A DNA stretch of 64,000 nt, taken from Enterobacter sp. C2 (GTDB lineage Bacteria > Pseudomonadota > Gammaproteobacteria > Enterobacterales > Enterobacteriaceae). Shown one piece after another: positions 30,579 to 32,717 of the stretch. A program made the translations under genes and the position numbers. Under the pieces are notes generated by a model. The model saw nothing but the letters and a program-made list of their open reading frames with translations, ran no database searches and was not told the DNA's origin. Position 1 is the stretch's first letter. Every line of letters starts with the position of its first letter. The DNA lies in contig NZ_CP082269.1 in the NCBI RefSeq assembly GCF_019880405.1, forward strand, positions 1,240,001 through 1,304,000. The letters are read 5' to 3'.

Positions 30579-30654
30579 GGGTCGTTAGCTCAGTTGGTAG
30601 AGCAGTTGACTTTTAATCAATTGGTCGCAGGTTCGAATCCTGCACGACCCACCA
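30579..30654 (+). tRNA. lysT: tRNA-Lys (anticodon TTT)
   Basis: A 76-base gene with encoded CCA. The acceptor GGGTCGT pairs with ACGACCC, the anticodon loop is CTTTTAA, and the T-arm is GCAGG-TTCGAAT-CCTGC. First of five tandem tRNAs after cpoB, matching the lysT position in E. coli. Confidence 0.98.
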
Positions 30655-30681
30655 CTTAAAGCAGTTCCAGCAGTAAAGAGT

Positions 30682-30757
30682 GGGTGATTAGCTCAGTTGG
30701 TAGAGCATCTCCTTTACACGGAGGGGGTCGGCGGTTCGAGCCCGTCATCACCCACCA
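30682..30757 (+). tRNA. valT: tRNA-Val (anticodon TAC)
   Basis: A 76-base gene with encoded CCA. Acceptor GGGTGAT/ATCACCC, anticodon loop with TAC, and T-loop TTCGAGC. The 27-base spacer from the preceding tRNA is short, consistent with one transcript. Confidence 0.98.
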
Positions 30758-30760
30758 CTC

Positions 30761-30836
30761 GGGTCGTTAGCTCAGTTGGTAGAGCAGTTGACTTTTAATC
30801 AATTGGTCGCAGGTTCGAGCCCTGCACGACCCACCA
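30761..30836 (+). tRNA. tRNA-Lys (anticodon TTT), variant T-loop
   Basis: Identical to the other lysine tRNAs here except that the T-loop reads TTCGAGC rather than TTCGAAT. That is the T-loop of the preceding tRNA-Val, suggesting local gene conversion. It lies only 3 bases after tRNA-Val. Confidence 0.98.
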
Positions 30837-30884
30837 CTTTCTGGTGGTACCGAGTAAAATAATCTTCGAAGTCAGCACCCGAAT

Positions 30885-30960
30885 GGGTCGTTAGCTCAGT
30901 TGGTAGAGCAGTTGACTTTTAATCAATTGGTCGCAGGTTCGAATCCTGCACGACCCACCA
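30885..30960 (+). tRNA. tRNA-Lys (anticodon TTT)
   Basis: A 76-base copy identical to the first lysine tRNA, with encoded CCA. It is separated from its neighbours by a 48-base and a 23-base spacer. Confidence 0.98.
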
Positions 30961-30983
30961 CTTCGAAGAGAGTTCCCCAAAAG

Positions 30984-31059
30984 GGGTCGTTAGCTCAGTT
31001 GGTAGAGCAGTTGACTTTTAATCAATTGGTCGCAGGTTCGAATCCTGCACGACCCACCA
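30984..31059 (+). tRNA. tRNA-Lys (anticodon TTT), last of array
   Basis: A 76-base copy identical to the first lysine tRNA. Its last 20 bases plus flank are repeated at 31143-31162, so this gene's 3' end is duplicated downstream. The E. coli array carries seven tRNAs here (with a second Val and two more Lys); this one has five. Confidence 0.98.
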
Positions 31060-31162
31060 ATTTCAACATAAAAAAATAGATGTTGAACGTGAAGGATAAC
31101 GTTGCGTCAGCAACGGCCCGTAGGGCGAGGCGAAGCCGAGTCATCCTGCACGACCCACCAAT
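31042..31162 (+). repeat. duplicated tRNA-Lys 3' end flanking a structured element
   Basis: Twenty bases (31042-31061), the T-arm and acceptor 3' half of the last tRNA-Lys, recur exactly at 31143-31162. The 81 bases between hold an 8-bp hairpin (31062-31069 with 31080-31087) and a cloverleaf-like fold: AGGAT/ATCCT (31093-31097 with 31143-31147) closing three short hairpins at 31100-31115, 31116-31126 and 31129-31137. It could be an attachment-site remnant or a tRNA-linked repeat family. Confidence 0.7.
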
Positions 31163-31164
31163 GC

Positions 31165-31193
31165 AAAAAAGCGCCCTAAAGGCGCTTTTTTGC
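31165..31193 (+). terminator. terminator of the tRNA operon
   Basis: AAAAAAGCGCC (31165-31175) pairs with GGCGCTTTTTT (31181-31191) around CTAAA: a strong intrinsic terminator that works in either direction. It lies immediately after the duplicated tRNA end. Confidence 0.92.
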
Positions 31194-31228
31194 TATCTGC
31201 GATATGCCATTTTCACAGCACTGCTTTT

Positions 31229-31303
31229 GTAGGTCGGGCAAGCACAGCGCCGCCCGACACAGCGACATACTGCCGGGTGGCGCTACGCTTACCCGGCCTA
31301 CGG
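31229..31303. repeat. REP pair (BIME) downstream of the tRNA operon
   Basis: Two REP-type palindromes lie in tandem: TCGGGC/GCCCGA (31234-31257) and GCCGGGT/ACCCGGC (31272-31297), with the usual GTAGG/CCTAC flanks. They separate the tRNA operon from the minus-strand gene pair. Confidence 0.75.
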
Positions 31304-31305
31304 CG

Positions 31306-31758
31306 TCATCGCCGGTCATCTGCCAGCGGCTCATTGTAAGGGCTTCTATATACCTGTACAAAAGTTCCTTTTTCAGACAGTAAGTTAGCAACCGTAACTA
31401 CATCTGTAGTCATGGGGTTTCGCCAGCAATCCGCTTCAACATCACAGGATTTTTGGAGCTTATAGCCTGAGGAGGTTAAGTAGTCCCGAATGGCTTTCGT
31501 TTCTGTCACATTGTAAAACGTTAAGGTAAAAACATGCGCCTCAGGGCCACTAACATTTGAAAAATCAAAGGCATACTGAGTAGAGATTCTGGGCATATTT
31601 TTCAACAGTTCTGGCGTATAAAATTCGTACTCTCTTTTTTCTTGCTCGGTGTAATGCGCAGAACTAGCAAACTCCATTTTCACGTAAGGCCAGCCAATAG
31701 TGAGCACGATAACGCCTAAGAGAACAGCGATAACTAGCCTTATTAAACTCTTCTTCAT
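31306..31758 (-). CDS. uncharacterised membrane-anchored protein, possible immunity partner
   Basis: A 150-residue protein not recognised as a named family. It has one N-terminal hydrophobic segment (about 5-27) with positively charged residues before it, so the remaining 120 residues probably face the periplasm. Two cysteines (CDVEADC, about 105-111) could form a disulfide there. Its ATG overlaps the stop of the upstream gene by 4 bases, so it is made together with that protein. Topology and coupling fit an immunity protein guarding the periplasm, but this is inference. The pair sits next to a tRNA array in a gap not occupied in E. coli K-12. Confidence 0.7.
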   Translation of the reverse strand: MKKSLIRLVIAVLLGVIVLTIGWPYVKMEFASSAHYTEQEKREYEFYTPELLKNMPRISTQYAFDFSNVSGPEAHVFTLTFYNVTETKAIRDYLTSSGYKLQKSCDVEADCWRNPMTTDVVTVANLLSEKGTFVQVYRSPYNEPLADDRR

Positions 31759-32459
31759 AGTCCTTCTCTGTCATTGCTGGCACCTAAAATTGCAAGGGTC
31801 TTGCCATGTTGCGGCATGATCACATTACCTGATTGAAAATCATTATAAGGAGAAACGGTACGCATAAACGGCGGAAGCAGCCCTTTACGTGGGCGTGAAT
31901 GAGGGGATTTGTCTGGATCGGGAAACAGCAGGGGCTGGAAAGTTTCATTTTTCCAGGAGCCAATTTTGCCATAGTAATCCCATCGCTTCAGTGCCTCAGT
32001 CTTACTTACCGGGCGAAGCATGCTGAAGGGGTTTTGAATAGATACCACGCGATAGAATCCCAGCAAGTCAGACACCAAATCTTCGCCGCTGTAGCTACTA
32101 TCAGTCACCCAATTATTGGGAAACTGACCCTGGAAGGCTTCGAATTTCCTCGCTACTGTCATCATCATTGCTAACGCTATACTTTTCTGCTCCCAGTCAG
32201 GCCGTCCATGTTTGATTCTCCATGTAAGCAACTTTCCAGAACGGAAAATACTATATGGAGTAGTCATGCCCTGAGAATACCTTACCTCATAGTACTCTTT
32301 CCCAGATGTTTCTCCTCGACTAAAATTATTGAGCAGCTGCCGAATATCTGCACCCTGGGCATGCCCGAGATCCACCCACCCAAGCACCTCTGTATATATC
32401 AAGCCACTTTTTTGACCCGGTGCATCCTTTCCATCAATTATTTGAGATCGTTTACTCAT
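31755..32459 (-). CDS. uncharacterised protein, DUF4056-like, possible effector
   Basis: A 234-residue protein without signal peptide or membrane helix. Two blocks recall the DUF4056 family: a YTEVLGWVDLGHAQG segment near residue 24 (conserved D..H) and SSYSGEDLVSDLLGFY near residue 120 (S.ED..S..LG). The start at 32459 (MSKRSQIIDG) has GGAG at 9 bases spacing; an upstream ATG at 32474 has its purine run directly adjacent and is less likely. It is coupled by a 4-base overlap to a membrane-anchored partner. An orphan secreted toxin with its immunity protein is one reading; a housekeeping envelope function cannot be excluded. The family match is from memory of motifs. Confidence 0.65.
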   Translation of the reverse strand: MSKRSQIIDGKDAPGQKSGLIYTEVLGWVDLGHAQGADIRQLLNNFSRGETSGKEYYEVRYSQGMTTPYSIFRSGKLLTWRIKHGRPDWEQKSIALAMMMTVARKFEAFQGQFPNNWVTDSSYSGEDLVSDLLGFYRVVSIQNPFSMLRPVSKTEALKRWDYYGKIGSWKNETFQPLLFPDPDKSPHSRPRKGLLPPFMRTVSPYNDFQSGNVIMPQHGKTLAILGASNDREGL

Positions 32460-32717
32460 CCTGATTGTCTCCATCCTCTGCTAAAACCCTTCGCTCTATC
32501 CATCATGCCAATTAGCCGTCCTTATTTACCTACTTTAAGTGCGGTCTTTGGGGGCAGGGCCTTTTATCATTGGAGGGTTTAGCATTGCGCCTAATTGATG
32601 TGACTTTTGCTCTGCGTTCCGCTATCTTGTTTAGTATATAAAACACAAATGCCTCATCCTCCGTCAGACAGCGTAGGTCAGGGTATTATTGTTAAGTCAG
32701 CAAAACGAGAAAGCATG
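32460..32717. promoter_or_regulatory. divergent promoter region, with NadR box ahead of nadA
   Basis: A gene-free stretch between the minus-strand pair and nadA. A NadR-box-like site TGTTTA-N6-AAAACA lies at 32628-32645, one base off the TGTTTA-N6-TAAACA consensus. NadR represses nadA-pnuC and nadB when NAD is plentiful. No other site is recognised. Confidence 0.7.

Follow-up and report, generated by a model that had tools for sequence, protein, structure and literature searches.

What is a second copy of a tRNA 3′ end doing just behind a tRNA-Lys gene, and what do the two copies enclose? We addressed this question in a window of Enterobacter sp. C2 DNA, the whole 64,000-nucleotide stretch that was analyzed, in which a tRNA array in the order Lys-Val-Lys-Lys-Lys (30579-31059) is flanked by cpoB and nadA. 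The last gene of this operon, a plus-strand tRNA-Lys(UUU) called by ARAGORN and Rfam RF00005, occupies 30984-31059. Its final 18 nt (31042-31059) and the two bases that follow form a 20-nt sequence, ATCCTGCACGACCCACCAAT, that is present exactly at 31042-31061 and again at 31143-31162, reproducing the 20-base recurrence at an offset of 101 nt that had been claimed. The repeat does not extend on its upstream side, and a scan of the whole 64-kb window found no repeated 20-mers outside the tRNA cluster, which excludes a chance origin.

The enclosed segment is a short-form member of a known family, RtT RNA (RF00391). The unit covers 101 nt of the plus strand (31060-31160), beginning at the base that follows the tRNA CCA and ending with the CCA of a tail that copies the last 18 nt of tRNA-Lys (31143-31160, plus strand), as delimited by the RF00391 match and by alignment with other short units. 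Its covariance-model score is 59.5 bits against a curated cut-off of 45. It lies 3′ of tRNA-Lys in the same orientation, and its 3′ end, which pairs with a 5′ strand, duplicates that of the preceding tRNA, as is the rule in the family. The Rfam alignment places the 5′ half of the model on the tRNA gene, from 30991 onward, so the reported match is longer than the unit itself; the window copy lacks GATGAG and the first 5′ arms (behind GGAUGAG) of the Rfam consensus, and the model fills this half with tRNA. A model built from short units, R1, detected long-form copies in the window genome (E-values of 8e-6 and 1e-4), indicating that the two forms are related, and the 3′ half that they share looks homologous. 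The original prediction had offered an attachment-site scar, a tRNA-borne repeat family or a processed RNA from the same transcript; the second is correct, and the family is RtT. NCBI/PGAP annotates an “RtT sRNA” at the equivalent site, behind lysQ, in many E. coli. TRIP1 repeats are unrelated.

Downstream of the unit, a repeat search revealed an inverted repeat, GCAAAAAAGCGCC/GGCGCTTTTTTGC (31163-31193, plus strand), which is the probable operon terminator. This hairpin was absent from the output of a rule-based terminator scan, and at sites that carry no unit it stands directly behind the tRNA. Closely 3′ of the unit are palindromic REP/BIME-like sequences, TAGGTCGGGCAAGC...GCCGCCCGACA and TGCCGGGTGGCGC...CCCGGCCTACG (31228-31305). 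Between the unit and nadA there are also two adjoining minus-strand ORFs of 150 and 239 aa (31306-32474) for which no Pfam matches were found; in E. coli K-12 this place is free of annotated genes. Upstream of cpoB the window contains the RNA thermometer CpoB_ybgF (RF02782; 29500-29638).

The complete unit (31060-31160) is predicted to fold with a minimum free energy of -34.2 kcal/mol (z = -3.9), which none of 200 shuffled sequences equaled, and a 72-nt core by itself folds more weakly (z = -2.2). In the predicted fold, a closing stem forms between GTGAAGGAT (31089-31097, plus strand), which is complementary to the tRNA-Lys 3′ end, and the first 9 nt of the tail copy (31143-31151, plus strand), with a single A-G mismatch. 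The stem encloses hairpin 2 (CGTTGC GTCA GCAACG, 31100-31115), hairpin 3 (GCCC GTA GGGC, 31116-31126) and hairpin 4 (GGC GAA GCC, 31129-31137), all on the plus strand, so both the three proposed hairpins and the reuse of the repeated tRNA end in the stem recur here. A further 5′ hairpin that had escaped the earlier reading, TTCAACAT/ATGTTGAA, pairs 31062-31069 with 31080-31087 (plus strand), and many units have a hairpin with compensatory changes at the same place. The proposed likeness to a cloverleaf holds for the three short hairpins in a closed junction but goes no further: the D, anticodon and T arms are missing, and the 3′ overhang is 9 nt compared to 4 in tRNA. Neither ARAGORN nor Rfam RF00005 recognized a tRNA-like gene in the unit, finding only the five tRNA genes of the array, and the resemblance is superficial.

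Comparison of 56 distinct short units showed that the named pairs are intact in 98.8% of cells, falling to about 50% or less in a control in which one side was slid. Hairpin 2 was paired in 100% of cells and hairpin 3 in 95%, while the middle G-C pair of hairpin 4 is replaced on both sides by A-U in 14 units, and the 5′ hairpin keeps its pairing despite many sequence changes. The closing stem is nearly invariant within tRNA-Lys units and varies between tRNA types: it reads GGGAAGGAT/ATCCTTCCC in Tyr units, GGGGGGGAT/ATCCCCCCC in Ser units and GGGAGGAT/ATCCTCCC in Arg units, and where the tRNA-Arg itself reads ATCTTCC, the stem becomes GGGAAGAT/ATCTTCC. In two genomes of about 2.3-2.5 Mb, Tyr units place GCTGGAT or GCTGGGT opposite ATCCAGC. 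When all groups were scored, own-tail pairing of the 5′ part was in most of them stronger than pairing with the majority of other tails; Pro-CGG is a clear exception, with own-tail pairing no better than pairing with other tails. These patterns support a genuine closing stem whose sequence follows that of the tRNA, and the compensatory changes support the predicted fold. In one K-12 copy (behind lysT, positions 431-530 of our locus L008), GGTGG in the spacer is predicted to pair with CCACC in the tail rather than to form a local hairpin.

The tail likewise follows the neighboring tRNA. Among 325 units selected to have at most two tail mismatches, 270 reproduce the final 18 nt of the preceding tRNA exactly, and such tail-copying units were seen for Lys, Arg, Tyr, Pro, Ser and Glu tRNAs. 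Two tRNA-Lys variants, CACGACCC and CACGCCCC, occur in certain genomes, several Citrobacter among them. Units match the variant directly upstream in 101 of 101 cases overall, and mixed operons alone give 16 of 16 (Fisher P 1e-4), although the species are related and the cases are therefore not fully independent. Tail mismatches were distributed as 31 in the stem half and 38 in the acceptor half (P 0.47), giving no significant sign of extra constraint on the stem half. The simplest reading is an ongoing exchange between tail and tRNA.

Other copies beside tRNA genes, for which the original prediction had proposed a search, were found both in this genome and in many relatives. The window genome, whose CpoB is 99% identical to that of Pseudescherichia vulneris, contains seven RtT matches: one behind tRNA-Tyr, two in tandem behind tRNA-Pro, the window unit behind tRNA-Lys and three in tandem behind tRNA-Ser. 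Across the family, 68 of 119 genomes have matches, with up to 18 per genome; the genomes listed without one are mostly small (0.4-2.4 Mb), and other families of the order yield weaker matches. The short form, of about 100 nt, consists of a variable 5′ spacer, often a hairpin, followed by GTGAAGGATAACGTTGCnnnnGCAACGGCCCGnAGGGCGAGGCGAAGCCGAGTC and the tail, and lies directly behind a tRNA and ahead of the next gene or a terminator-like hairpin. A survey of 279 tRNA-Lys genes recognized 78 short units behind them, against none behind the 76 non-Lys genes, mostly Val, in these operons; tRNA-Arg(ACG) genes are followed by the same form. In E. coli K-12 (NC_000913.3), four short units with the core GCCCGNAGGGCGAG, all unannotated, are found in the lysT operon behind lysT, lysW, lysY and lysZ. 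The long form, of about 140-200 nt, has additional 5′ arms, and several of its copies are located behind a terminator-like hairpin that was duplicated together with the unit. Five long units behind the last tRNA-Lys (L018, L059, L072, L076 and L240) contain an extra module (GATTCGACAAAATTGTCGGGAACAATTTTG...GAGTCTCAGGATGAGACGAGT or similar) before the usual core, indicating that RtT units are modular. At two loci, L248 and L260, the tRNA-Ala(GGC) 3′ end is repeated 84-86 nt downstream around a segment without the RtT core, possibly a different tail-copy element; these tails were excluded from the RtT argument.

Strains differ by whole units. The original prediction stood to fall if the element proved to be an isolated copy at an invariant site; instead, variation is strong. 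Twelve E. coli operons form a mosaic of presence and absence at the five sites of the lysT operon, with units at all five sites in K-12, at three in N3 and at none in UTI89 or 4/1-1; FDAARGOS_1291 has two tandem units behind lysQ. At each of the four internal sites, a K-12 spacer shortened by one unit has exactly the length of its UTI89 counterpart, and the remaining bases are identical at 53/53, 67/69, 61/66 and 50/51 positions. A shorter lysQ-nadA span without a unit was observed in 29 of 60 genomes taken at even intervals along the ranking, and in the window's own group the operon of one relative has one unit and that of another has two. Since UTI89 and 4/1-1 contain no operon unit at all, the unit is dispensable in those strains. 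We found no integrase-bounded island at the site: the inspected relatives have the unit only or nothing there. We conclude that RtT is a genuine structured RNA unit that strains gain or lose one at a time, probably through recombination between the tRNA-end copies. In the literature searched, which excluded the primary RtT papers, we met no description of the co-change of a unit's own tail and stem with the tRNA or of single-unit strain variation, so their novelty is not established.

Our results suggest, with a probability of roughly 80%, that short-form RtT is a structured spacer reaching from the CCA of the last tRNA-Lys to the probable terminator and released as an RNA, with recombining tails and a selected stem. 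The closing stem is built from the 5′ strand of the unit itself and the copy of the tRNA 3′ end. The unit would be transcribed together with the tRNAs and freed as a small CCA-ended RNA by the nucleases that mature tRNAs, and the two tail copies may act as sites of recombination or slippage at which units are lost, multiplied and, by conversion, kept identical to the tRNA. Selection on the RNA would preserve the stem from one tRNA type to another. Transcription of the short unit is likely, as it lies ahead of the probable terminator; many long units are instead found behind a terminator-like hairpin, which would limit their transcription. For the window copy, a processed RNA from the same transcript, the third of the origins first offered, is plausible by analogy. 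Later papers (PMC4986893; PMC2965389), citing Bosl and Kersten 1991, describe rtT of the tyrT operon as a stable RNA released from the tRNA transcript, and RtT-family RNAs of Actinobacillus pleuropneumoniae and Pasteurellaceae members were detected on Northern blots (PMC4986893). RNase P processing of the E. coli lysT transcript proceeds from the 3′ end, with terminator removal first (PMC11143913), so a unit located there sits where processing begins. As reported in later papers, rtT has a damping effect on the stringent response; RttR overexpression had no effect in one biofilm and motility screen (PMC4606813).

Among the alternatives, the unit could be neutral debris, a partial tandem duplication of a tRNA end and its spacer that yields an RNA without a role. 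Its dispensability in UTI89 and others, the decay of part of the tails and a VNTR-like copy number (PMC2658671) agree with this view, but hairpin 4 and the 5′ hairpin show compensatory changes and the stem strand changes in step with the tRNA; both observations point to selection on structure, at the RNA or the DNA level, and make neutral debris unlikely. Alternatively, the unit could be a small non-autonomous mobile element whose insertion at the 3′ end of a tRNA gene duplicates that end, without benefit to the cell. This would explain the precise presence or absence with a doubled tRNA end, the many tRNA types, the patchy distribution and the published overlap of RtT with BIME/REP repeats (PMC2965389; PMC12306157). 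We consider this distinctly unlikely: almost every unit stands behind the tRNA whose tail it bears, never behind tRNA-Val in this operon, there is no linked transposase, and site-specific 5′ spacers common to different genera point to descent in place, while recombination accounts for the tracking of the local tRNA variant without transposition. A more speculative and improbable idea is that RtT units are guided by tRNA ends, with pairing of the 5′ stem strand to a tRNA 3′ end directing copying or insertion at matching tRNA genes and capturing the local end, so that a single core, its stem remade each time, would come to stand behind Lys, Arg, Tyr, Pro, Ser and Glu tRNAs.

The attachment-site scar, a doubled end left by the past integration of a tyrosine-recombinase element at the 3′ end of tRNA-Lys, accords with the typical doubled ends and suitable repeat length but is rejected as highly improbable. 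The window contains no integrase gene (the closest one in the genome is ~395 kb off), empty sites differ by exactly one unit, and one and the same structured segment recurs across many genera and behind several tRNA genes of a single genome. Carriage on plasmids was likewise rejected, as both inspected plasmid records have cpoB upstream and are therefore chromosomal contigs. Matches in a phage collection were large Salmonella contigs by name, besides one short, unannotated and unverified phage record, and phage carriage was not accepted.

We compared the window unit with known systems. It shares with rtT/rttR of the E. coli tyrT operon (RF00391) the position behind a tRNA, the tRNA-end tail and the closing stem with the CNACGNCCCGNAGGGCGAG core, but it is short, precedes a terminator-like hairpin rather than following one, and takes its tail and stem from tRNA-Lys instead of tRNA-Tyr. 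Like RtT in its published form, 3′ETS-leuZ and other tRNA transcript spacers that serve as sRNA sponges are small RNAs cut from a tRNA precursor, leuZ-3′ETS being released by RNase E during tRNA processing (PMC5222698), but neither a tail copy nor an RtT fold has been described for them. REP/BIME sequences are also short structured intergenic repeats of enterobacteria; RtT, in contrast, is tied to tRNA genes and carries the local tRNA end, and the BIME-like sequence in the window is a separate neighbor. Attachment-site duplications have a doubled tRNA 3′ end in common with our site, which differs in having no integrase or island and a fixed structured unit of ~100 nt between the copies.

The reach of the Rfam RtT model into the tRNA gene exposes an annotation fault. 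In E. coli RM10466 (positions 820-993 of locus L266), the annotated RtT ncRNA (827-993) overlaps a tRNA-Lys that ARAGORN detects and the record lacks, and the model seems to have displaced this gene from the annotation, as it may be able to do in other genomes. The RtT family has been under-studied since 1991, and our comparison presents it as a widespread unit that keeps the local tRNA end together with a matching stem strand. The co-change of stem and tail with the tRNA and the single-unit variation between strains merit specialist attention, and the single-unit differences at the five sites of the essential lysT operon provide natural strain pairs for asking whether RtT matters at all and what it does in tRNA maturation.
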